Shown: positions 9,647-18,736 of the stretch, in pieces | Layout of the letters: each line of letters begins with the position of its first letter | Position numbering within the stretch: position 1 is the first letter of the stretch | Assembly: GCF_000423425.1 (NCBI RefSeq) | Contig: NZ_AUHY01000023.1 | Span: forward strand, 1 to 39,702 | DNA length: 39,702 nt | Source of the DNA: Meiothermus rufus DSM 22234 | Lineage (GTDB): Bacteria > Deinococcota > Deinococci > Deinococcales > Thermaceae | Reading direction: 5' to 3' | The notes under the pieces: generated by a model | Database searches by the model: none | The model's input: only the letters and a program-made list of their open reading frames with translations | What the model was told of the DNA's origin: nothing | Made by a program: the position numbers and the translations under genes

Positions 9647-9723
9647 GGGCGGTTAGCTCAGCTGGTTAGAGCACACGCCTGATAAGCGTGAGGTCCCCGG
9701 TTCGAGTCCGGGATCGCCCACCA
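9647..9723 (+). tRNA. tRNA-Ile (anticodon GAU), target of the integrative element
   Basis: A 77-nt gene with encoded CCA. The acceptor GGGCGGT/ATCGCCC, D stem GCTC/GAGC, anticodon stem CACGC/GCGTG with loop CTGATAA, and T stem CCCGG/CCGGG all pair. Its 3' part from 9678 is repeated at 18691-18736, so the end of this gene was probably supplied by the integrated element and the original end was displaced. The gene stays fully functional on paper. Confidence 0.95.
9678..9723 (+). repeat. attL, within tRNA-Ile
   Basis: This 46-bp segment from the anticodon stem to CCA matches 18691-18736 at 44 of 46 positions. The first 20 bases are identical. The two differences are the partners of one T-stem base pair. 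Confidence 0.88.
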
Positions 9724-9735
9724 GCACCAGGACGC

Positions 9736-9766
9736 AAAAAACCGGAGTCGCTTAGGCTCCGGTTTT
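9736..9766. terminator. Bidirectional terminator between tRNA-Ile and int
   Basis: AAAACCGGAG (9738-9747) pairs perfectly with CTCCGGTTTT (9757-9766). It has A and T runs on both sides, so it can end the tRNA-Ile transcript and the minus-strand int operon. It belongs to the element. Confidence 0.8.
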
Positions 9767-9772
9767 CGCTTG

Positions 9773-9792
9773 TACCCCCGAGTTTTACCCCC
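9773..9792 (+). repeat. Left pair of TACCCCC repeats, candidate integrase arm sites
   Basis: TACCCCC occurs at 9773 and 9786, 13 bp apart, between the int stop and attL. The same heptamer occurs four times near attR, again with 13-bp pair spacing. Confidence 0.55.
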
Positions 9793-9805
9793 ATTGGGCC
9801 TCGAG

Positions 9806-10969
9806 CTAGGCTCGGTGGCGGGGGCCATCCAGCAGGTCTTCCAGAGGCAACACCCCCTGTTGCCGCTCCTCGCTCAGCAGGTGACGGTATATCGAGAGGG
9901 TCACGTTGACGTTGCCGTGCCCCAACCGCTCCGACACCAGGCTCACATCCACCCCTCGGGCCAGCAGCAGGCTAGCGGCGGTGTGCCGCAAATCGTGGAT
10001 GCGCACCTGGGGAAAGTCGGGGTGCTCCAGCCGGATACGCTCGACCAGGCGGCGTAGGTAGTGGTTGGGTGCGTTGATGTCTAAGGGCCTGTCCAGGCCG
10101 AACACGAACGCCCCTTGCAGCCCTCGAGGGGTATACCCCTCGGCTAGCAAGCCGTCATAGCGGGCCTTCAGCCGGGCCAGCAGGTCAGCCGGAATCGGAA
10201 CCAGCCGCCTGGCCGCGCGGGTCTTCAAGGGGCCTAGGGCAGCCTTGCTCCCTTGCAGGGTGTACTGTCGCTCGACCTTCAGCGTGGCCCCTACGAAGTC
10301 CACATCCCGCCATTGCAGCCCCAGCGCCTCGCCCTTGCGCAAACCGAGTTGCACCAGCACCCGCAACAACAGGGCCATGAGCGGGCTTTGGGACGCATCG
10401 GCGTATTCCAGCAAAACCCTTACTTGGGAGGGCTCGAGGTGCTGAGCGGCCTTCTCCCGCTCCGACGCTCGGGGTAGCCGCACCGCAGTGCTCGGGTCAC
10501 GGTGGATCAGTTCGAGGGCCAGGGCCTCCCGCAGCACCAGCCGGACGCGCTCCAGCACCTTAGCTGTGGTTCTGAGGCTGTACGCCTCGCTCACCCGATC
10601 CAGCATCCGGCGCAGATCGTGGGGGGTGAGCCGTTGCAGCGGGATGTCGCCTAGGTGCTCCAGGGCCAGGGCCAGTTCTCTTGCGTAGTTGCGCCTCGTG
10701 TTGGCGGCCTTGCCCCGAGTATGCCGCTCCAGCACCTCTTTAGCGAAATCCCCGAAGCGTCGGCGGTCAGGACGCGCTACCAGCCCCCGGCTGTGCTGCA
10801 CCTGGTACTCGTGGGCTTTTTGCAATGCCTCCTTCTGCGTCGGGCCGTACACCGACACCCGGCGGCGGTGAACGCCGTCCGGCTCGGTTACGTAAAAGCG
10901 GCATTCCCACAGCCCGTTAGGGCGTTGCCGGACGTTGCCTTGCAGGTTAGCGGTTCGCCTCTTGCCCAT
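9806..10969 (-). CDS. int: Tyrosine-recombinase integrase
   Basis: A 387-residue site-specific recombinase that inserts the element into tRNA-Ile. The N-terminal 60 residues form an arm-binding-like domain, residues about 70-165 the core-binding SAM-like domain, and the rest the catalytic domain. The catalytic set is complete: R211 in GLRKGEALGL, K249, H325-x-x-R328 in HDLRHTAA, H351 in LGHGNVNV and the nucleophile Y361. The gene lies 83 bp from attL, the usual place for tRNA-targeting integrases. Its start overlaps the upstream small gene by 23 bp. It is therefore last in the replication operon, which may tie integrase supply to replication. Confidence 0.95.
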   Translation of the reverse strand: MGKRRTANLQGNVRQRPNGLWECRFYVTEPDGVHRRRVSVYGPTQKEALQKAHEYQVQHSRGLVARPDRRRFGDFAKEVLERHTRGKAANTRRNYARELALALEHLGDIPLQRLTPHDLRRMLDRVSEAYSLRTTAKVLERVRLVLREALALELIHRDPSTAVRLPRASEREKAAQHLEPSQVRVLLEYADASQSPLMALLLRVLVQLGLRKGEALGLQWRDVDFVGATLKVERQYTLQGSKAALGPLKTRAARRLVPIPADLLARLKARYDGLLAEGYTPRGLQGAFVFGLDRPLDINAPNHYLRRLVERIRLEHPDFPQVRIHDLRHTAASLLLARGVDVSLVSERLGHGNVNVTLSIYRHLLSEERQQGVLPLEDLLDGPRHRA

Positions 10970-11168
10970 CCTGCACCCCCTTCAGCAACCCTAAAACCTC
11001 GAGCCCCTTGAGCAGCGCTTCCCCGCGTTGTTTGGGGGTCAGCCTGAACACCCGGCGGCGGTCCAGCTTCCCGTCAGGACGGCGGCCTAGGGTTACCTGC
11101 ATCGTCCAACGGCTGCCCCGCTTGGTGGGCTTGGTGCCTGCCCCACGGGGGCGTTTCCTACTCGCCAT
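10947..11168 (-). CDS. Small basic protein resembling an integrase arm domain
   Basis: A 73-residue, strongly basic protein. GSRWTMQVTLGRRPDGKLDR resembles the three-stranded arm-binding (AP2-like) domain at the start of many tyrosine integrases, and the integrase downstream has a comparable N-terminus of its own. It overlaps int by 23 bp and the upstream gene by 11 bp, so translation is probably coupled. It could bind att or arm DNA as an accessory or competing factor, but this is inference. No other domain is recognisable. Confidence 0.6.
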   Translation of the reverse strand: MASRKRPRGAGTKPTKRGSRWTMQVTLGRRPDGKLDRRRVFRLTPKQRGEALLKGLEVLGLLKGVQDGQEANR

Positions 11169-11556
11169 CCCCTACCTCCACCTCCAGGGCCTTCAGCCCG
11201 GCCTCCTCGTCCGGCCAGCGGAGAACAATCTCCATCGCCTGCCGGCCAGACACCTCCACGTGGTCGCCGTAGCCGCGATGGCGGCCCAAGCGGGACAGCA
11301 GCCATTTCGCCGACTGGACGTCCCCCTCATGGATAGCGCGGTGGATGAGGCTTTCGGCAGCGTCCAGGAGGCCCTCTCGCTCGGCCTCAAATGCGGCTTG
11401 GGTTTCAGGCCAGCGCTGGATAAGCGCCCGAGCAGTGCTCCAGCTAGCCCCAAGGCGCTCAGCCACGGTGCTCACGATTCCGCCGCAGTCCTCAATCGAT
11501 CTGAGAACTTCCCCTTTGCCGTATCTAGGCCTTTTACCCATTCTCGGTTTTCTCAT
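11158..11556 (-). CDS. HTH protein resembling phage small terminase
   Basis: A 132-residue protein. It opens with a basic segment and a helix-turn-helix-like stretch (residues about 15-50: EVLRSIEDCGGIVSTVAERL then a second helix), followed by a helical part AESLIHRAIHEGDVQSAKWL and LGRHRGYGDHVEV. That middle part resembles HTH small-terminase proteins of phages, which recognise pac DNA. No large terminase is present, as in phage satellites that borrow the helper's motor. A plain DNA-binding regulator is the alternative. ATG 11556 overlaps the stop of the preceding 44-codon gene as ATGA. Confidence 0.55.
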   Translation of the reverse strand: MRKPRMGKRPRYGKGEVLRSIEDCGGIVSTVAERLGASWSTARALIQRWPETQAAFEAEREGLLDAAESLIHRAIHEGDVQSAKWLLSRLGRHRGYGDHVEVSGRQAMEIVLRWPDEEAGLKALEVEVGDGE

Positions 11557-11687
11557 ATATTTCTCTCCAAGGTTAGCAGGGGGTGGCCTATCTCCTCGAG
11601 CAGCAGCCGGGCCACCAGTTGGGGCAGCCGGTCGAAGAGGGCCTCCCAGAGGGCATCAGTCTCGATTGTCTCAGGTTTCTTTGGCAT
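11553..11687 (-). CDS. 44-residue protein between polA and the terminase-like gene
   Basis: A short gene starting at ATG 11687-11685 inside the last codons of the polymerase gene and ending in TGA at 11553. GGAG lies 5 nt before the start, and the stop shares an ATGA with the next gene. The product begins MPKKPETIETDALWEAL, continues with a Leu-rich helix DRLPQLVARLLLEEI, and ends in ERNI. It looks like one amphipathic helix. Function is unknown. The tight overlaps at both ends and the SD sequence are the reasons for calling it real. Confidence 0.6.
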   Translation of the reverse strand: MPKKPETIETDALWEALFDRLPQLVARLLLEEIGHPLLTLERNI

Positions 11688-13686
11688 ATTGTCTCCAGCT
11701 AGTGACCCCCCAGTCTTCATAAACCCCGGCTTCCACCTCTACCGGTACCCGGCCGTTCAAAACTTCCTGCATGGCTTCCTTCATACAGCACACGAGTTCG
11801 AGCGCTACCCCCTCTACCACGTCCCGGGGGGCCTCGAGCACGATTTCGTCATGCACCGCCAGCACCGGGAAGGCACCCTGCAAACGCTCCCGGCGTTCCC
11901 ACAACAGTGCCAGGGCCAACTTCAGCCCGTCCGCGCCCGACCCCTGGACCGGCGTGTTGAGTCTCTCGGTGTGCCGGGAAGTTACCCGGCGGCGTCCGGT
12001 GAGGGTGCGTACCTCGGTCTCGCCCTCGGGTTGGCGGCGGTGCCAGGCCCGTAGGCCGGGGTAGGCCCTGAAGAAAGCCTCACGCAGGGCCTCGGCCTCC
12101 TGGGGGGAGAGCTCCAGGCCGTAGTTCGCGCGGGCGTAGGTGCGCAGCCCCTCGGACCCCATGCCGTAGAGCAGGCCGAAGTTTAGCGCCTTGGCTAACT
12201 GCCTGTCCCCACGGCTGGGCTCGGCCTTGCCGGTGATGAGCCGGGCGGTGAGGGTGTGCAAGTCCTCACCCTGCTCGAAGGCCTCGAGCATGCGCTTCTC
12301 CCCGGCGATTTGCGCGGCCAGCCGTAGCTCAATCTGCGAATAGTCGGCTTTGACGAGCAATCTACCGATAGGGGCGCGGAAGCAGGCGCGGTAGGCCGGC
12401 TCACGCGGCACCTGCTGGAGGTTGGGCCTGGAGCAGGACATTCTTCCCGACTCGGCCCCAATCTGCTGCCAGGAGGGGTGGATGCGGCCGGTGAGGGGGT
12501 GCAGGTTCTCGAGCCAGGCCGGGCCGTAGGTGCCCACCCGCTTGCGGTGCTCCCGGTAGGCGAGCAGGGCCGCCACGGCGGGGTGAGTGCGGTAGCGAGA
12601 TAGAGTCTCTTCCCGGGTATCGCTGAGCTCGAGCCCCGCCCGGCGCAGGGCCTCGAGCACCTGCCTGGGGCTGTCCCAGTTGGTACGCCAATCGAGCCGC
12701 TTCAGGGCTTCCTGGGCGCTAAGCTCGGCCTCCCGGGCTGCCGTTAGCCAGCGCTCGGGATCGAAGGGCACGCCCATGAGCCCCATCCAGGCCACGGCAG
12801 GCAGGGCGCGGGACTCAATCTCCAGGACCCGCACGAGCCCTAGCCGCCGGGATTCCTCCTGCTGCTGGTGGTAGAGGGGCAGGAGCACCTGCGCGTCTTT
12901 GGCGGCGTAGGCCAGCTGGGCCTCGCTGAGGGGGCCGGACCAGTCGGAGGTTTGCAGACGCTTATCCAGGCCCGGTGCCAGGTCGGCCAGGGCGGGCATG
13001 CGGGCCTGGGCGTGAATGACTTGGTGGGCCAGGCCGGTGCACCAGAGCCGCCGGCCCTCGGGCCACAGCCCGGCTTTGAGGAGAAAGGCGAGGTCGAACT
13101 TGAGGTTATGGCCCACCAGAACCGGGCCGGTAGTGGCCTCGAAGAGGGGCCGCAGGGCCTCGAGGGCGCGGGGTAGGGCAAGCATGTCGAGCAGGTAGGC
13201 ACCCCGCTCCGTGCTCAGGCTCAGCAGCCGGGGCCGGTCCTGGTGGGGGTCCAGTCCGCTGGTCTCGAGGTCGAGCCCCAGCACCGGCGCGGCCATCAGG
13301 CGGGGTAGCAGGCCCTCCAGCTGGTGGGGCTCGGTGACGAGGGTGTACGCTCGCGGTGTTTGCGGCGCTTGTTCGCCTATTCCATTTATGGGCAGGTGGG
13401 CGTCCAGGGCCAGCAGTAGGGGTTGCAGGCCATAGTCTTTGGTGAGTCCAGAGCACAGGCGCAGTTCCTCGGGGGTGAGCGTCCCGCCGCTACGGGCCAG
13501 CAGCGCGAGCAGGGCGGGTTTGTGGTGGCGTATGGCGTCCTCGAGCCCCAAAGCTACACCCTTAGGACTAACCCGCAAGGTGTTGCCGTGGCGCTCCAGT
13601 GTAGCCTTACGCTGCGCCAAGGTCTCGAGTAAACCTGCCGGGTTAGAAGTAGTCTGCATCATCCTCTGCCTCACGAATCGGGTCAT
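11671..13686 (-). CDS. Family A DNA polymerase with TubC-like N-terminus
   Basis: A 671-residue replicative-type polymerase I relative without a 5' nuclease domain. Residues about 15-65 (NPAGLLETL to HHKPALLALL) resemble a TubC docking domain. The 3'-5' exonuclease is intact: D139-x-E141, D198 in GHNLKFDLAF and Y260-x3-D264. Polymerase motif A is D448YSQIE, motif B is R495-x3-K499-x3-F503GLLYG and motif C is HD613E. It should therefore proofread. The start is uncertain: 13686, or the tandem ATGs near 13662, all overlapping the upstream gene. It probably copies the element together with the neighbouring primase and ATPase. Confidence 0.9.
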   Translation of the reverse strand: MTRFVRQRMMQTTSNPAGLLETLAQRKATLERHGNTLRVSPKGVALGLEDAIRHHKPALLALLARSGGTLTPEELRLCSGLTKDYGLQPLLLALDAHLPINGIGEQAPQTPRAYTLVTEPHQLEGLLPRLMAAPVLGLDLETSGLDPHQDRPRLLSLSTERGAYLLDMLALPRALEALRPLFEATTGPVLVGHNLKFDLAFLLKAGLWPEGRRLWCTGLAHQVIHAQARMPALADLAPGLDKRLQTSDWSGPLSEAQLAYAAKDAQVLLPLYHQQQEESRRLGLVRVLEIESRALPAVAWMGLMGVPFDPERWLTAAREAELSAQEALKRLDWRTNWDSPRQVLEALRRAGLELSDTREETLSRYRTHPAVAALLAYREHRKRVGTYGPAWLENLHPLTGRIHPSWQQIGAESGRMSCSRPNLQQVPREPAYRACFRAPIGRLLVKADYSQIELRLAAQIAGEKRMLEAFEQGEDLHTLTARLITGKAEPSRGDRQLAKALNFGLLYGMGSEGLRTYARANYGLELSPQEAEALREAFFRAYPGLRAWHRRQPEGETEVRTLTGRRRVTSRHTERLNTPVQGSGADGLKLALALLWERRERLQGAFPVLAVHDEIVLEAPRDVVEGVALELVCCMKEAMQEVLNGRVPVEVEAGVYEDWGVTSWRQYAKET

Positions 13687-15637
13687 CCAACCCGGCGAAC
13701 AACCCTTGCGGTTTAGTGGCGTCGTTTGTTTTTAGAATTTGAGGGTACTCAACCACCGCAACCACCGCATCCACCGCAGAACCCGTGCTGGACGGTGTTT
13801 CTGTTTGCGGTGGTTGTTGTGAACCCCAAGAGTCATCCACCGCAACCACCGTCGAGGTGGGGGGTTTTAGCGGTGGTTGCGGTGGTTGGGCTGAAACCCA
13901 CCGCTCAACCACCGCAGTATTTTCTGTCGTGCTGGACGCTGTTTGCGGTGGTTGCGGTGGATGCGGTGGTTGTTCCCCCCTATTTTCTAAACAAACCGAC
14001 CACCGCAGGTTCTTGGTTCGGGGGTCACGGGTTCCCCTGACCGCCACCCCCACGCCCCGAAGCGCGGTCTGAAGTCGGGGTAAATGCTTACCCAAACCAG
14101 CTGCCGTTCTAGGCCACCCCTCGGGTTTGCGGTTGCTGTCCGATAATCCTGCGGCGGTCTCAAGCTCCTTGAGAAGCTCGGAGGTGGTGTACTCCCGGCG
14201 CTCTCCCTCGCTGAAGGTAAGGGTGAGTTCGAGGATGGCACGCGCTACCGGGTCATTGTCCAACAAATCCTGCTCAAGTCCAGCTTGAACGGCAAAGGTT
14301 GCCTCCACGACCTCCCCGTGCCTGAGCCCCAACACCGGCGCAGCGGCTTCGGCCCAGATGGCCCAGTCTGCCAGCCGGGGGAGTTGGGGCAGCTCCCTGG
14401 AGGTAGTTTCCAGGTTGGCTAGCGCCGTGACTGCTGCGTCCAGCAAGACCCCCAGGGTCTTAGCGCGAATGTGTTCAAACTCAGCCAAAAGCTCCCGTTC
14501 GGGTTTGCGCTCGGTGTCCTCGATGCGCTCGAGGTTCAGGGTCAGCGCTCGGTCTGCCAGGTCGTCCCGGAGCAACCCCAGGCTAATACCGGTGATCAAA
14601 ACGGGTCGGGTAGCCTCCAAGACGTGCTCGTCCGAGTCGGTGTACAGCGCTCTTTTGCTCAAGCCTGCGCCGGTGGATAACCGGCACAACGAGTCGGAGA
14701 GTTTGGCGCTCACCCCGCTTAGGTTGTCCAACGCCAAAACGTGACCCGCGCTAGCCGCCACCATCAGGTCGGTCTCATCGCGCGGTTCTGAACGGAGTGG
14801 TGCCTTGGCGGGGTCAACCAGGTTCTTTAGCAGTTTAGCCGCAAAACTCTTCCCCGCACCCTTCGCCCCCAGAAACACGAGAACGGGATAGCCGCCATGT
14901 GGGTTGAGCGTGCCGATGAGCCAGCCCAACAAAATCACGCGGTCCCGGCGTTCCCGCAGGGGCAACAGTTTCAAGAAGTCCTCGAGGTTCCCGCCCCGCT
15001 CAGGCAGCGGTAGGGGGAGTTGGTGCGGAGTCCGGCGAAAGCGCACCGGGCACTCGTCCGAGTGAATCACCCGCCAGCCCGAAGGGGTAATCTCGACCAC
15101 CTGGCGGTCGGGCCGGGACAGGTCGTAATAGACACGCCTTTCGTGGAGTGCCAACCGGAGATACACCGGATGCTCGGGTCCTTGGAACCGCGCTCGGGCT
15201 TCCAGCGCGGCTAGCGCGTCCTGCAACGCTTGTGCGTACAAAGGCTTGTTGTTTCTCTCGAAATAGATGCCGGATAGCCACGTGCGAAAGTCTTTGTGCC
15301 GGATGGAGAGGTGATGAAGCACCCCACCAACGGTGACTGAAGCCCATCCGTCACCTTCGGGAGTGTGCCAAAGCTCTAAACCCGCTTCCAGCGCTAACTG
15401 CACCGCTTCCCCGGCGGCGTTCTGGTCGAGGTTTGGCGATTCTCCTAAATAGACCTGAAAATCCTTACGCACGGCGGCAATCGGGGTTTTGAGCCTATTA
15501 GCGACGGCTTTCAACACGCTGTCGGTCTCAACCGCGTTGAGTCCGCTACTAACTATTAGTTGGAAAAGTTCCGAGGATTTGGTGGCCCAGTCCTCGAGGG
15601 TTAGCGAGTCGATAAGGTATCGAAAATCAGCATTCAC
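13643..15637 (-). CDS. P-loop ATPase, putative replicative helicase
   Basis: About 664 residues. Walker A (FLGAKGAGKS, near residue 255) and a Walker B-like VLALDN lie in a central ATPase domain, with VLITGISL as a possible sensor and LRDDLADRAL as a possible arginine finger. The layout resembles ATPases next to primase-polymerases in phages and plasmids, probably superfamily 3 or AAA+. Residues about 570-640 are Pro/Gln- and Val-rich (HPPQPPQT, AVVAVVEY) because the DNA there is an array of 9-bp repeats. The GTG at 15637 overlaps the primase gene by 11 bp; another GTG at 15658 is possible. Helicase activity is inferred. Confidence 0.7.
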   Translation of the reverse strand: MNADFRYLIDSLTLEDWATKSSELFQLIVSSGLNAVETDSVLKAVANRLKTPIAAVRKDFQVYLGESPNLDQNAAGEAVQLALEAGLELWHTPEGDGWASVTVGGVLHHLSIRHKDFRTWLSGIYFERNNKPLYAQALQDALAALEARARFQGPEHPVYLRLALHERRVYYDLSRPDRQVVEITPSGWRVIHSDECPVRFRRTPHQLPLPLPERGGNLEDFLKLLPLRERRDRVILLGWLIGTLNPHGGYPVLVFLGAKGAGKSFAAKLLKNLVDPAKAPLRSEPRDETDLMVAASAGHVLALDNLSGVSAKLSDSLCRLSTGAGLSKRALYTDSDEHVLEATRPVLITGISLGLLRDDLADRALTLNLERIEDTERKPERELLAEFEHIRAKTLGVLLDAAVTALANLETTSRELPQLPRLADWAIWAEAAAPVLGLRHGEVVEATFAVQAGLEQDLLDNDPVARAILELTLTFSEGERREYTTSELLKELETAAGLSDSNRKPEGWPRTAAGLGKHLPRLQTALRGVGVAVRGTRDPRTKNLRWSVCLENRGEQPPHPPQPPQTASSTTENTAVVERWVSAQPPQPPLKPPTSTVVAVDDSWGSQQPPQTETPSSTGSAVDAVVAVVEYPQILKTNDATKPQGLFAGLDDPIREAEDDADYF
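13752..14007. repeat. Array of fourteen 9-bp repeats, candidate replication origin
   Basis: The motif ACCACCGCA (one or two changes allowed) occurs on the plus strand at 13752, 13761, 13770, 13836, 13845, 13897, 13908 and 13999. Its complement TGCGGTGGT occurs at 13806, 13869, 13878, 13944, 13953 and 13962. Two blocks of three tandem copies face each other. AT-rich stretches flank the array (about 13723-13741 and 13980-13996), unusual in this GC-rich DNA. It lies inside the helicase-like gene. Iterons next to a DNA-unwinding element are the typical form of a plasmid or satellite origin; this function is inferred. Confidence 0.65.
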
Positions 15638-16487
15638 GCCGCACCCCCAAGCGTTCACGACGGTTTATCCAAAGACGAAGGCGGGGTGGGAGTTCCCGCA
15701 CCAATGCCGGGGTATCTTTGCCGCGCTCGAGACCCCAAAGAATAGCGGAAGCGGCCTCGTCTTCCGGCAAACCCACGCTCAAAGCCGCCCGAAGCAGGGT
15801 GTTATAGCAGTGCTCCCGGTCGAGTCCCTGAGCCACCAATCCCCCCACGCGGGCAGCCGAGCGTACAAGCTGGTTGTGCCGGTTGCCAACGGCAGCCGAG
15901 CGTACCCGGAGGGCCTCAAGGCGCAGCGCGTCCATTAGTGCTTCCCGGCTTGGAGTGCCGGTAGCTGCACCCAGCACCGGCACTTGCAGCGCGGCGAGCA
16001 GGTCTCTAGGCATCTCCGGCAAATCCGACGGAGCGCGCAAAGGCACGATCCATTGGTAAGAGCCACGTTCGGTGCGGGAAGGGTACTCGAGCAAATAATT
16101 TTTGCTGGACTTTATCTCGAAACCCGGAAGCGCCCTACCACTGTGGTTACGCAGCGCAGCGCCTTCGGGAACCCGAAGGTACACGTGCGCTCCACCACGC
16201 GGTGTTCTTGAGTGAGGGGCTTTCTCCAGGACGGGCCAGCGGCGCAGGAAGCGGGAAAACTCGCCCACCTCGTCAAAGTCGAGGGCCACGACCCCTACGG
16301 GCGGAACGATGGCGACATTAGCCGAAGGCTCGAGCCGATACCAGGCCGAGATGACGTGAGGGTTCAGGCTAGCGGTATGGAGCCCGCGCGGGGCGAGGTA
16401 GGCGATAGGTCTTTTGGATTCGGGCGCTATGGGCAACACGGGGTAGCCCATCGCGGCGAAGTGGAGGGCGGCCTCGAGGTTAGTCAC
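15627..16487 (-). CDS. Bifunctional primase-polymerase (archaeo-eukaryotic type)
   Basis: About 286 residues from GTG 16487, which overlaps the previous gene by 8 bp; ATG/GTG starts further up would overlap much more. The N-terminal prim-pol domain begins AALHFAAMGYPVLPI and shows the metal-binding LDFDEVGE, the PRGGAHVYLR histidine motif and FEIKSSKNYLLEYPS, as in prim-pol proteins of phages and plasmids. The C-terminal third is a helical region resembling primase C-terminal domains. It should make primers and perhaps short DNA for the element. It sits directly upstream of the helicase-like and polymerase genes. Confidence 0.85.
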   Translation of the reverse strand: MTNLEAALHFAAMGYPVLPIAPESKRPIAYLAPRGLHTASLNPHVISAWYRLEPSANVAIVPPVGVVALDFDEVGEFSRFLRRWPVLEKAPHSRTPRGGAHVYLRVPEGAALRNHSGRALPGFEIKSSKNYLLEYPSRTERGSYQWIVPLRAPSDLPEMPRDLLAALQVPVLGAATGTPSREALMDALRLEALRVRSAAVGNRHNQLVRSAARVGGLVAQGLDREHCYNTLLRAALSVGLPEDEAASAILWGLERGKDTPALVRELPPRLRLWINRRERLGVRREC

Positions 16488-16677
16488 GCCGGGCCTCCTC
16501 GTGGCCGCAGCAGGGGCAGTACACCGCAGGCCCATCGTCGCGCTCGAGGTTGTAGCGCTCGAGCTCGGCGGGCAGGGGCCGGCCGCAGCGGGGGCAGTGA
16601 CCGTACTGGATCATTACGCCCGCGATGGTGCGGCGAATCGCGCGCAGTTCGTGTAAAATGCTCTCCGGGATAAGCAC
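16480..16677 (-). CDS. Small zinc-ribbon protein
   Basis: A 65-residue protein with two Cys pairs, CPRC near residue 29 and CPCC near residue 54, forming a zinc ribbon. The start GTG 16677-16675 has an excellent AAGGAGGT site 5-6 nt upstream. It overlaps the primase gene by 8 bp. Small zinc ribbons are common among phage early genes and may bind DNA or RNA; the exact role is unknown. Confidence 0.75.
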   Translation of the reverse strand: MLIPESILHELRAIRRTIAGVMIQYGHCPRCGRPLPAELERYNLERDDGPAVYCPCCGHEEARRD

Positions 16678-16688
16678 AGTACACCTCC

Positions 16689-16925
16689 TTACCGAACCCC
16701 GCCCTCCCCGGCGGGGTTTTTACCGGCCTCGAGGTCGTCCGCCCGAATATCCCGGCGCCAACGAGCGGCTTCGGCCAGATACGCCTCGAGGTCAGAACGG
16801 CGCATCATCATGACCTGTCCCACCTTGATGTGGGGAAGCCGCTTCATCAAGCGGTAGGCAGTCTCGCGCCCTATTCCGTACTCTTTCCTGATTCCTTCTA
16901 CCGTGAGCAGTTCTTTTCGTTCCAT
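16689..16925 (-). CDS. HTH DNA-binding protein (excisionase/MerR-like)
   Basis: A 78-residue protein with a winged-helix HTH_17-type domain: LTVEGIRKEYGIGRETAYRL, then a wing with HIKVGQVMMMRRSDLEAYL. ATG 16925 is chosen because the HTH starts right after it and the start lies beside the divergent promoter. As first gene of the replication operon, facing the opposite gene at 16957, it could be the regulator that decides between the two directions. Its last codons are encoded by a terminator-like hairpin (16697-16716). Confidence 0.75.
   Translation of the reverse strand: MERKELLTVEGIRKEYGIGRETAYRLMKRLPHIKVGQVMMMRRSDLEAYLAEAARWRRDIRADDLEAGKNPAGEGGVR
16697..16721 (+). terminator. Terminator-like hairpin within the HTH gene end
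   Basis: CCCCGCC (16697-16703) and GGCGGGG (16710-16716) pair and are followed by TTTTT on the plus strand. It overlaps the last codons of the minus-strand HTH gene. It could stop plus-strand antisense transcription into the operon. On the minus strand there is no T-run. Confidence 0.5.
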
Positions 16926-16933
16926 ACAGCCAT

Positions 16934-16950
16934 ACCCTAGGTTGTAGAAT
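16934..16950. promoter_or_regulatory. Divergent promoter region of the element
   Basis: On the plus strand TAGAAT (16945-16950) ends 6 nt before the GTG at 16957, a leaderless layout. On the minus strand TAGGGT (16939-16934) lies 8 nt before the HTH start at 16925. Only 31 bp separate the two genes, so the promoters must overlap and probably exclude each other. Confidence 0.5.
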
Positions 16951-16956
16951 GAGGTT

Positions 16957-18150
16957 GTGCCAGAGTCATTTAGCGTAACAGTTAGCGTTACACCCCTTGC
17001 TTTGAGGCCCCCTGTAAAGTGGGCAGACTCAGCACAAGAGCTTCTGCCTCTTGACCCCGGTCGCACCTGGAGTGTGGTTAATTTCGTGGGGCTGTATAGA
17101 CCATACCTGGAAGAACTTTTGAGGGCTTATACCATGTCTCGCCCCGACGACCTCGAGGCAAAGAGGTTTGCATTAGGGCCTGACCCTGATTACAAACCAG
17201 ACGCACACTCCTTTTTGGTGTTCGAATCGTGGGAGCTCACCAAAAATTACGCAACGGTGAAGCGCCCTGTTGCACTTCCACCCCCACCCACATATTGGGA
17301 ATATCCCCGCTTAACCATCACAGCGGTGCCTAGCGCAATCGCAGGTGTATTCATTGAGTGGGACGGCCCTCCCCCCGTCCCCGTGTTGGAAGGCTTTTAT
17401 TGGCTTTGGCGGGCTCTCCAAAAGTCTCTCAAAGCAAAGGACGACCTAGCCCACTTCAAAGAGAAAGTGCTCGAGCTTGCCCCAAGGCTCGGATTGCTGG
17501 AGCTACACCCTGGGGTAGGGCGTATGTTTGCACGGTGGAAAGGCTTAGGTGCGCACACGCACATTCAAGATTCCCTCTTTGGGTGGGTCAATGCAACGGT
17601 GACGGTGCGCTTTTGGAGGGAAGTCCTATCGTCTGGGGTGGGAGAACCGGTCTGGGGGTTTCTCGAGTCCCTACACGGTTTTTTACCACCAGCGGCGGGT
17701 GACTGGGAGAAATATCTAAAGCTCTTAGCAAACCCCTCAAACGAATTTGTGATCGATTCTTTTTGGCCCCTCTATGCGGTCGTTGAGTTATTGCACCTTC
17801 ACGAGGGGGTAGACCCAAAGAGCCATCGGCGCTTTCAAGCTCCCCGCCAAAACATAAGCGAGAGACTGGTGCGCGAATACTTACAGCTTGAAGGATTACG
17901 GGGGCTTGTTGTTCCTGGGCCTGTCAGTCCTGCACCTCGCATAGGTAAAGACCCCGGCAAAATTCTAAACTTGACAGGCTACATGGGCAGCTACCACCGG
18001 GCGTTGCTCGAGTTATCAAGGTATGAAGGTCACAGGGCGACTTGCAACCATTGTGGCAAGGCTTTCATGCGTGAACGTAAGACCGGGAAGTACTGCTCGA
18101 CGGCCTGCCGTGTGGCGGCCTCGAGGGAGCGGAAGAGGGGTTCAAGCTAG
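16957..18150 (+). CDS. Unknown protein with C-terminal zinc finger
   Basis: A 397-residue protein not recognised by eye. The body is rich in aromatic residues (FYWLWRALQKS, WKGLGAHTHIQDSLFGW, SFWPLYAVVELLHLH). It ends in a Cys4 finger, CNHCGKAF...YCSTACRVAASRERKR, resembling the CGNR-type finger in which basic residues follow the last Cys. The coding sequence is visibly less GC-rich than its neighbours. It is the only plus-strand gene of the element, divergent from the replication operon and leaderless. In satellites and prophages this position often holds cargo such as anti-phage defence, but nothing in the sequence proves that here. Confidence 0.75.
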   Translation: MPESFSVTVSVTPLALRPPVKWADSAQELLPLDPGRTWSVVNFVGLYRPYLEELLRAYTMSRPDDLEAKRFALGPDPDYKPDAHSFLVFESWELTKNYATVKRPVALPPPPTYWEYPRLTITAVPSAIAGVFIEWDGPPPVPVLEGFYWLWRALQKSLKAKDDLAHFKEKVLELAPRLGLLELHPGVGRMFARWKGLGAHTHIQDSLFGWVNATVTVRFWREVLSSGVGEPVWGFLESLHGFLPPAAGDWEKYLKLLANPSNEFVIDSFWPLYAVVELLHLHEGVDPKSHRRFQAPRQNISERLVREYLQLEGLRGLVVPGPVSPAPRIGKDPGKILNLTGYMGSYHRALLELSRYEGHRATCNHCGKAFMRERKTGKYCSTACRVAASRERKRGSS

Positions 18151-18188
18151 CCCCAAGGTTGGGTGCAATAAGGGTGCAATGCACACCC

Positions 18189-18386
18189 CTAACGCTCCCC
18201 GCCCTGCTCGGCGGGGTTTTCCAACTTGTGGCCTAAAACGCGCTCGAGTTCGGCTCGAGGGATAACGAGCCGCTTGCCGACCTTCGTAGCGCGAAGCTCC
18301 CCACGCCAAATCGCGCGGTACACGGTGTTCTTGTGGGTTCCTAGTGCCTGAGCAACCTCTTCAACGGACAGCGCTAACCTTTGCAT
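18189..18386 (-). CDS. Excisionase-like HTH protein
   Basis: A 65-residue HTH_17 protein: LSVEEVAQALGTHKNTVYRA, then LRATKVGKRLVIPRAELERVL. ATG 18386 has GGAGG 5 nt upstream and the domain begins right behind it. Small proteins of this family act as excisionases or regulators. The position near attR and the candidate arm sites favours a role in excision. A terminator hairpin stands directly upstream of its ribosome site. Its last codons lie in the terminator of the opposite gene, as in the other HTH gene. Confidence 0.7.
   Translation of the reverse strand: MQRLALSVEEVAQALGTHKNTVYRAIWRGELRATKVGKRLVIPRAELERVLGHKLENPAEQGGER
18197..18220 (+). terminator. Terminator of the 16957-18150 gene
   Basis: CCCCGCC (18197-18203) and GGCGGGG (18210-18216) followed by TTTT lie 47 bp after the plus-strand stop. 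The stem also encodes the C-terminus (NPAEQGGER) of the minus-strand excisionase-like gene. Confidence 0.7.
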
Positions 18387-18400
18387 TTGGCCTCCAATGC

Positions 18401-18444
18401 AAAAAAACCCGGAACCCCCCCGACTCGGGGTAAGTTTCCGGGTT
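18401..18444 (-). terminator. Terminator or attenuator before the excisionase-like gene
   Basis: On the minus strand AACCCGGAA (18444-18436) pairs with TTCCGGGTT (18414-18406), with a nested CCCCGA/TCGGGG stem inside. A run of seven T (18407-18401) follows. The SD and ATG of the excisionase-like gene come 15-20 nt later, so this could block host read-through or work as an attenuator. Confidence 0.65.
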
Positions 18445-18690
18445 GTCCGCGCCACGTATTCGCGGCAGAGCCGCTTAGCCTCGTCGCGGGCGCGGCATGG
18501 GCCGCGCCATGAGGCACCCTCACTTTACCACACTTTTTGTGTATTGCCGTACCCCCATTTCGTACCCCCATTACCCCCAAAAACTACCCCCAACAGGCGG
18601 TTACAGGTGGTTACGGCCACCTGGCAAAAAGCCCGTATTTATCGGGTTTTGCGTTGATTGTTGGTTACGGCGGGTAATGTAGCTTTTACT
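18445..18690. other. Non-coding end of the element next to attR
   Basis: This stretch of about 245 bp contains no convincing gene. It holds the right-hand TACCCCC repeats, an inverted repeat CAGGTGG/CCACCTG (18604-18610 with 18617-18623), a hairpin CCCG-tatttat-CGGG with A and T flanks (about 18625-18650) that may terminate in both directions, and repeated GGTTAC(GG) words. It is probably the recombination-control region. Confidence 0.6.
18550..18591 (+). repeat. Right TACCCCC repeats, candidate integrase arm sites
   Basis: TACCCCC occurs at 18550, 18563, 18572 and 18585. They form two pairs, each spaced 13 bp, the same spacing as the pair beside attL. Confidence 0.6.
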
Positions 18691-18736
18691 CCTGATAAGC
18701 GTGAGGTCCCGGGTTCGAGTCCCGGATCGCCCACCA
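18691..18736 (+). repeat. attR, displaced 3' end of tRNA-Ile
   Basis: A copy of the tRNA-Ile 3' half without a 5' half, so it is not a tRNA gene. It differs from attL only at the two partners of T-stem pair 51-63 (G-C here, C-G in attL), so pairing is kept. Confidence 0.88.

Follow-up and report, generated by a model that had tools for sequence, protein, structure and literature searches.

The 39,702-nucleotide contig NZ_AUHY01000023.1 of Meiothermus rufus DSM 22234 (contig C21 of this 2.74-Mb Thermaceae genome, taken whole and referred to here as the window) carries a 9-kb insertion in a tRNA-Ile gene, and raises the question of what kind of mobile element has its own proofreading DNA polymerase and yet no recognizable virion or transfer genes. 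The original prediction saw in it a complete replisome and proposed a new family of thermophile phage satellites. We find instead that it is probably a non-conjugative, tRNA-borne integrative element resembling ICETh2, and that it probably lives as an integrative plasmid equipped with a replisome. What is novel is the conserved location of an origin-like repeat array inside the coding sequence of the helicase.

The element is 9,013 bp long and is set between two copies of a 49-bp direct repeat, one of which forms the 3′ end of the tRNA gene:

9647..9723, plus strand: tRNA-Ile(GAT), the integration target (ARAGORN), its 3′ half now element-derived
9675..9723, plus strand: attL, left copy of the 49-bp repeat (direct-repeat comparison)
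18688..18736, plus strand: attR, right copy of the 49-bp repeat, with the genus-typical tRNA-Ile 3′ end displaced by integration

The tRNA and the 9,013 bp from start to start of the repeats bear out exactly the coordinates and the size that had been claimed. The copies are 94% identical, a match far beyond chance, since the core of the repeat has no further match anywhere in the genome and a base pair of the T-stem is exchanged between the copies in a compensated manner. The mismatches fall at three of the 49 positions and comprise one base at the left together with this pair (CCCGG/CCGGG versus CCGGG/CCCGG). In the genus, the site was found in 12 other genomes, every one of which has the attR-type T-stem variant at tRNA-Ile, and the 3′-end variant now at 9647–9723 is unlike that of every matching genome of the genus. 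With the genus-wide variant sitting at attR, the resident host end was displaced there, and the element supplied the sequence in which the tRNA now ends, from a host with another tRNA-Ile allele. This footprint is direct evidence that the DNA was acquired horizontally and integrated site-specifically, and the crossover is most likely placed within the identical stretch 9678–9697. The right flank lacks synteny in the genus relatives examined, so the empty site can be compared only via the tRNA and the left flank. A similar arrangement is seen in another species of the genus, where two copies of the tRNA-Ile 3′ end lie 34.6 kb apart (G028:C1:57881-92569) and probably delimit a larger element that is inserted in this tRNA gene.

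Between the borders, the minus-strand genes are arranged from right to left as an excisionase-like helix-turn-helix (HTH) protein, an HTH_17 regulator, a zinc ribbon, a primase-polymerase (PrimPol), a helicase, a DNA polymerase, small open reading frames (ORFs) that include an HTH gene termed TerS-like and a 73-aa ORF, and an integrase. The only plus-strand gene among those listed, a zinc-finger gene at 16957–18150, opposes all the rest; the single overlapping operon that had been described therefore holds for the gene order and the overlaps but not for this gene. The genes for integration and replication are:

9806..10969, minus strand: tyrosine integrase (PF00589, 4.7e-24; phrog_1, 3.2e-67)
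11671..13686, minus strand: family A DNA polymerase with 3′-5′ exonuclease (PF00476, PF01612; NF011539)
13643..15658, minus strand: predicted AAA+ replicative helicase (AlphaFold model; fold match to 7ola)
15627..16535, minus strand: PrimPol of the archaeo-eukaryotic primase (AEP) type (PF09250, 1.1e-27)
18189..18455, minus strand: excisionase-like HTH protein beside attR (phrog_66, 4e-8; phrog_1840, 1.4e-4), with homologues in most relatives

The frames of PrimPol, helicase and polymerase overlap by about 20–45 nt, which suggests translational coupling. Pfam and PHROG matches support the integrase, PrimPol, family A polymerase and excisionase assignments of the original prediction, the last with two HTH_17/excisionase-like proteins rather than one, and the claim of a complete replisome is better put as a near-complete replication module of PrimPol, helicase and polymerase.

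Elements of this general design recur in the order. Of 111 genomes searched with the helicase, 15 gave matches, and among the regions retrieved nine elements that share the helicase have a tRNA 3′-end repeat (Val, Met, Arg, Leu or Lys) at their borders. They are about 7–13 kb long and mostly consist of integrase, variable genes, helicase, PrimPol and excisionase; further tRNA-borne elements have the PrimPol alone in common. A search for the same gene order in the tRNA genes of relatives, which had been suggested as a check, thus returns at least nine cases with clean tRNA borders, and borders are indeed conserved at the homologous loci. The closest relative, L024, has a helicase of 91% and a polymerase of 80–83% identity but an integrase of only 31%, and is located at tRNA-Val; L034 has an 89% identical integrase at tRNA-Val(CAC), and an attR-side arm (TGGTTAYGGCGGGTAATG..GCTTTTACTC) nearly identical to that of the window element, but a helicase of 38%. 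These comparisons show that integrase and replication module are freely exchanged between elements. Relatives of the integrase at 89% and 83% identity are found in elements at tRNA-Val, and within a searched set that did not include Int2 of ICETh1 and ICETh2 its relatives in tRNA-borne elements range from 40 to 89%. Because the 89% integrase of L034 lies in tRNA-Val, a single integrase clade serves both tRNA-Ile and tRNA-Val, as has likewise been reported for Int2 (PMC7693054). In L024, PrimPol and helicase are separated by a transposase-like gene (L024:8163-9194).

The family is evidently not new, as its architecture corresponds to that of the ICETh2-like elements already described from Thermus and Meiothermus (PMC7693054). 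The likeness to these elements (PMC7693054, PMC9751324) extends to an att site of 45–50 bp at a tRNA 3′ end, a tyrosine integrase with an excisionase, a PrimPol gene followed by a helicase or P-loop gene (the layout present here), a size of 7.5–12 kb, a host in the same bacterial order, and a conjugation apparatus of their own not being described. They differ in that neither a family A polymerase nor an origin or iteron array has been reported for them (PMC7693054, PMC9751324). The integration site is tRNA-Val for ICETh2 and tRNA-Ile for its partner ICETh1 (PMC7693054); of the DNA donation genes of ICETh1 type, NurA was not found in the genome and DUF87 matches are weak and generic. In agreement with the original prediction, Pfam and PHROG scans of the element ORFs detected no virion genes and no relaxase or transfer apparatus domain, so that the element is not an integrative and conjugative element in the strict sense, which calls for a relaxase or transfer apparatus of its own.

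The polymerase has a polymerase domain (DNA_pol_A, 6.6e-68) and a 3′-5′ exonuclease domain (1.8e-23), and the 5′ nuclease domain is absent (Pfam). It scores 870 bits against NCBIfam NF011539 (cutoff 640), and its exonuclease and polymerase motifs are intact, with DLET, GHNLKFD and YAAKD legible in the sequence. Its start is probably the ATG at 13662, which overlaps the helicase stop. Polymerases of this clade are present in four of the 111 genomes, namely in the window element, L024, L071 (Thermus brockianus YIM 77927) and L072 (genome G070). A gene duplication of the host PolA was considered and is ruled out by the tree, in which the four element polymerases cluster with a Chloroflexota sequence and one more contig (99/98 support), distant from host PolA. 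In L071 and L072 the polymerase follows another, DUF3987-type helicase, and the element polymerase clade thus pairs with two different helicase types; despite this difference, the zinc ribbon of the window element recurs in both L071 and L072, and its plus-strand zinc-finger gene in L072. A transposase gene (365 aa; L072:8928-11724) interrupts the polymerase of L072, with the tRNA-Val borders of the element retained.

The helicase is less readily recognized. It has no Pfam, PHROG or NCBIfam match, and by sequence its profile finds only generic P-loop ATPases among solved structures (the PrimPol has zero matches in the same comparison). An AlphaFold model built from 16 sequences (mean predicted local distance difference test, pLDDT, 76) consists of a folded body at residues 1–557 and a disordered tail at residues 561–671 with a pLDDT of about 30. 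The closest structure is the SaPI5 primase-helicase 7ola (Z 20.0, root-mean-square deviation 7.9 over 375 residues), followed by poxvirus D5/E5 (Z about 18), PriRep1 (Z 14.7) and Cch of the staphylococcal cassette chromosome mec (SCCmec; 5dgk, Z 13.6). The P-loop ATPase of the original prediction, although without a profile, therefore has a structural model that fits the primase-helicase fold of the SaPI/D5/SCCmec type.

The DNA that encodes the predicted-disordered tail of the helicase (residues 561–671) contains a repeat array:

13729..13991: putative replication origin within the helicase 3′ coding region, made up of iterons in 9-bp phase that run in both orientations and have the core CCACCGCAA
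13729-13737 and 13983-13991: putative-origin flanks TTCTAAAAA and TTTAGAAAA, respectively, bordering the iteron array
13784..13794: palindrome CGTCCAGCACG, copy 1
13928..13938: palindrome CGTCCAGCACG, copy 2, paired with the first at 144 bp

The array has a period of 9 and twelve near-copies of CAACCACCGCAA, and its repeat score of 166 compares with a maximum of 10 over 500 first-order Markov simulations. When sliding-window repeat counts were made over 13 elements, the densest array was found at the helicase 3′ end or just beyond its stop in 12 of them, and in the thirteenth (L030) the second-best array is in this position. The iteron sequence varies between elements while the layout is constant. 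Palindromes of the form CGTSCWGSACG occur at 1.6 per kb within the arrays versus 0.05 per kb outside, and in five elements the paired copies are spaced by exactly 144 bp. When the window is compared with L024, none of the 88 tail codons (556–643) has a synonymous change, versus 67 of 541 codons in the body (Fisher p=4e-5), and at fourfold sites the counts are 0 of 53 and 34 of 275 (p=0.003), as would be expected of selection on the DNA itself. These features make the array at the helicase 3′ end a probable replication origin. The phage-inducible chromosomal islands (PICIs) have iteron origins together with pri-rep genes (PMC6092414), and the iterons to which SCCmec Cch2 binds follow its gene (PMC7581432). 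Arrays in this position are also present at helicase homologues of several, though not all, viral contigs and of a Chloroflexota contig; they are absent or weak near several others (viral contigs, Methylobacterium plasmids). On the 12-kb archaeal plasmid pH6Ac of Methanothrix harundinacea, which encodes a 39% helicase homologue (L244, 1608-4982), the second strongest array of the plasmid directly follows the helicase domain. The antisense strand of the helicase tail in the window (13711–13992) weakly matches helicase protein in a translated search (E 1e-6), because the iterons run in both orientations.

We propose the following mode of life. Integrase and the excisionase-like HTH protein would release the element as a circle of some 9 kb through recombination in the tRNA-Ile repeat, with the crossover within 9678–9697. 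The helicase, with its SaPI/D5/SCCmec-type primase-helicase fold, would assemble on the 9-bp iterons that its own gene contains at the 3′ end; PrimPol would make primers, and the exonuclease-proficient family A polymerase of the element would elongate them, making the element less dependent on the host replisome. Copies could re-integrate at tRNA-Ile or reach other Thermaceae, we infer most plausibly via natural competence. Several observations weigh against this proposal. Aligned with solved folds, the helicase has an identity of about 10%, which points to a common fold without proving function. Deletion of PrimPol did not reduce the excised form of ICETh2, whose replication is low if it exists (PMC7693054), and PrimPol may for this reason have another role, such as a proposed function in defence; that it acts in replication here is our inference. 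Several members of the family have no palindrome pair at the exact consensus, and the synonymous freeze is seen in one pair only, the pair L026/L027 being without it.

Could the element instead be a satellite of the PICI or P4 kind, induced by a helper phage, replicating with its own enzymes and packaged in helper capsids via the TerS-like protein? Its size, integrase and excisionase genes, replication module, HTH regulators and lack of capsid genes would all suit such a life style, as would the match of the helicase to the SaPI5 primase-helicase. Moreover, distant phage homologues of the TerS-like gene, annotated as DNA-binding or hypothetical, are located between replication genes and the large terminase gene (TerL), with no other small terminase annotated in the stretches read. 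The small-terminase assignment itself lacks confirmation, though, since the protein matches no terminase profile in Pfam, PHROGs or NCBIfam, with a weak HTH_23 match (0.0017) below cutoff, and its AlphaFold model, made from a single sequence, is uninformative (pLDDT 52.8). The gene is missing in L024, the closest relative, and apart from distant matches the only other one found is an 84–85% copy in this genome, on contig C98. TerL family PF03354, the sole terminase family searched there, has no match in the genome, no helper phage is known, and no interference or capsid-remodelling genes were recognized in the element. We therefore regard a satellite as improbable, and more generally an integrase, a primase and an HTH gene are insufficient for calling one. 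The copy on contig C98 belongs to a second related element fragment (L243, G000:C98:1-5627), which has a Toprim primase-like gene, a DUF3987 helicase, an array in the next ORF and an excisionase-like gene. The element is also not a decayed prophage; the genes that flank it are ordinary chromosomal genes, no structural or lytic genes were found within it (Pfam, PHROG, NCBIfam), nor virion genes beside it, and a prophage remnant is ruled out.

It seems less probable still that the element is a mobile defence island, whose PrimPol, helicase and polymerase serve chiefly to counter phages or incoming DNA and are not primarily replication enzymes. Loss of PrimPol from ICETh2 raised natural transformation 100–1000 fold and left the circular form undiminished (PMC7693054), but ppol mutants were later found to have a secondary loss of addAB (PMC9751324). 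PADLOC gave no model for the helicase, PrimPol or zinc-finger gene and only generic polymerase/exonuclease-domain matches, and both the iterons at the helicase gene and the phage and plasmid homologues point to replication. The least credible of the alternatives, and a very unlikely one, is an immobile, domesticated remnant of a single integration that has lost excision. Such decay might be read from the attL/attR mismatches (3 of 49 positions) and from the interrupted polymerase of L072, but the reading frames of the window element are intact and overlapping, and the att differences are explained by another donor tRNA allele and lie outside the likely crossover. An integrative plasmid of ICETh2-like type remains the reading we favor.

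A family A polymerase on an integrative element is unusual, as the original prediction had remarked, but is not without precedent. SCCmec (PMC7581432) is likewise an integrative element and has an active A-family polymerase (CCPol), an AAA+ helicase (Cch2) and helicase-bound iterons near the helicase gene, and it is a functional precedent with experimental backing. Its primase is CCPol-MP rather than an AEP PrimPol, the element, host and integration machinery are different, and the likeness of the helicases is one of fold only (Z 13.6 to Cch 5dgk). The pri-rep-ori satellites of PICI/SaPI type (PMC6092414) similarly combine a primase, a rep helicase and an iteron origin (putative here) with the absence of virion genes, and the helicase model is closest to the SaPI5 primase-helicase 7ola; unlike them, the window element has its own proofreading polymerase and no proven TerS or cos, nor a known helper. 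The polymerase itself resembles PolA3, an exonuclease-proficient, phage-linked PolA group (NAR 2026, PMC12926913), and NF011539 in lacking the 5′ nuclease, in its intact 3′-5′ exonuclease motifs, in its scattered distribution and in having phage relatives, although it resides in small tRNA-borne elements and the likeness is one of domains and motifs. Small cyanobacterial plasmids such as pAL20118a (12.2 kb) have an AEP/DnaB-like primase-helicase gene directly before an exonuclease/family A polymerase gene, but the helicase is of DnaB type, the plasmid is free, and the array is away from the helicase/polymerase junction.

If these interpretations are correct, the element contains a compact thermostable replisome of about 5 kb (primase, helicase, proofreading polymerase and origin) and would explain how ICETh2-type elements, which have been suspected of replicating, could do so. 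They also make a specific prediction for a set of elements, plasmids and viral contigs to which the literature consulted had assigned no origin: it should lie within the helicase gene. We advance more tentatively, at somewhat less than even likelihood, the broader idea of a self-contained replication cassette, made up of PrimPol, AAA+ helicase, iteron origin and proofreading family A polymerase, that spreads both whole and piecemeal among phages, small plasmids and tRNA-borne elements of different phyla. With the origin embedded in the predicted-disordered tail of the helicase gene product's coding sequence, initiator and origin would always be passed on jointly, and iterons that diverge along with the helicase would create compatibility groups. 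Two fused arrangements are seen elsewhere. In a contig of a Chloroflexota metagenome-assembled genome (L109:7006-10711) the helicase frame continues straight into the polymerase exonuclease domain, with a repeat array at the junction and the rest of the polymerase in another frame. In a viral contig with TerL and tail-like genes (L261:7211-11773), a single 1,520-aa frame encodes PrimPol, D5 helicase, exonuclease and a family A polymerase and includes a stretch of 9-bp iterons; this speaks for the coherence of the replication module.

The remaining genes of the element are small or lack curated relatives:

10947..11168, minus strand: 73-aa protein, its first 46 codons 76% identical to a region of L024 overlapping the integrase start
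11158..11556, minus strand: HTH protein, the TerS-like gene (HTH_23, 0.0017, below cutoff)
11553..11720, minus strand: 55-aa ORF with a short motif 64–75% identical over 28 aa in L025, L034, L036, L212 and L220
16480..16677, minus strand: small zinc-ribbon protein (CPRC...CPCC motif) with homologues in L024, L071 and L072
16689..16928, minus strand: HTH_17 regulator/excisionase-like protein (PF12728, 2e-7; phrog_66)
16957..18150, plus strand: 397-aa protein with a CxxC...CxxxC zinc finger at its C terminus, oriented divergently from the operon

The relatives that share the motif of the 55-aa ORF are all without the polymerase, and retention of this motif suggests that the polymerase was inserted between the helicase and the 55-aa ORF, or lost there. 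The zinc ribbon is conserved among the polymerase-bearing relatives. The ORF of the HTH_17 gene opens to 17066, and its domain implies a start near 16928. The 397-aa zinc-finger protein matches no curated family; it has a homologue in L024 (35%), and its C-terminal part also has homologues in L072 and L211.

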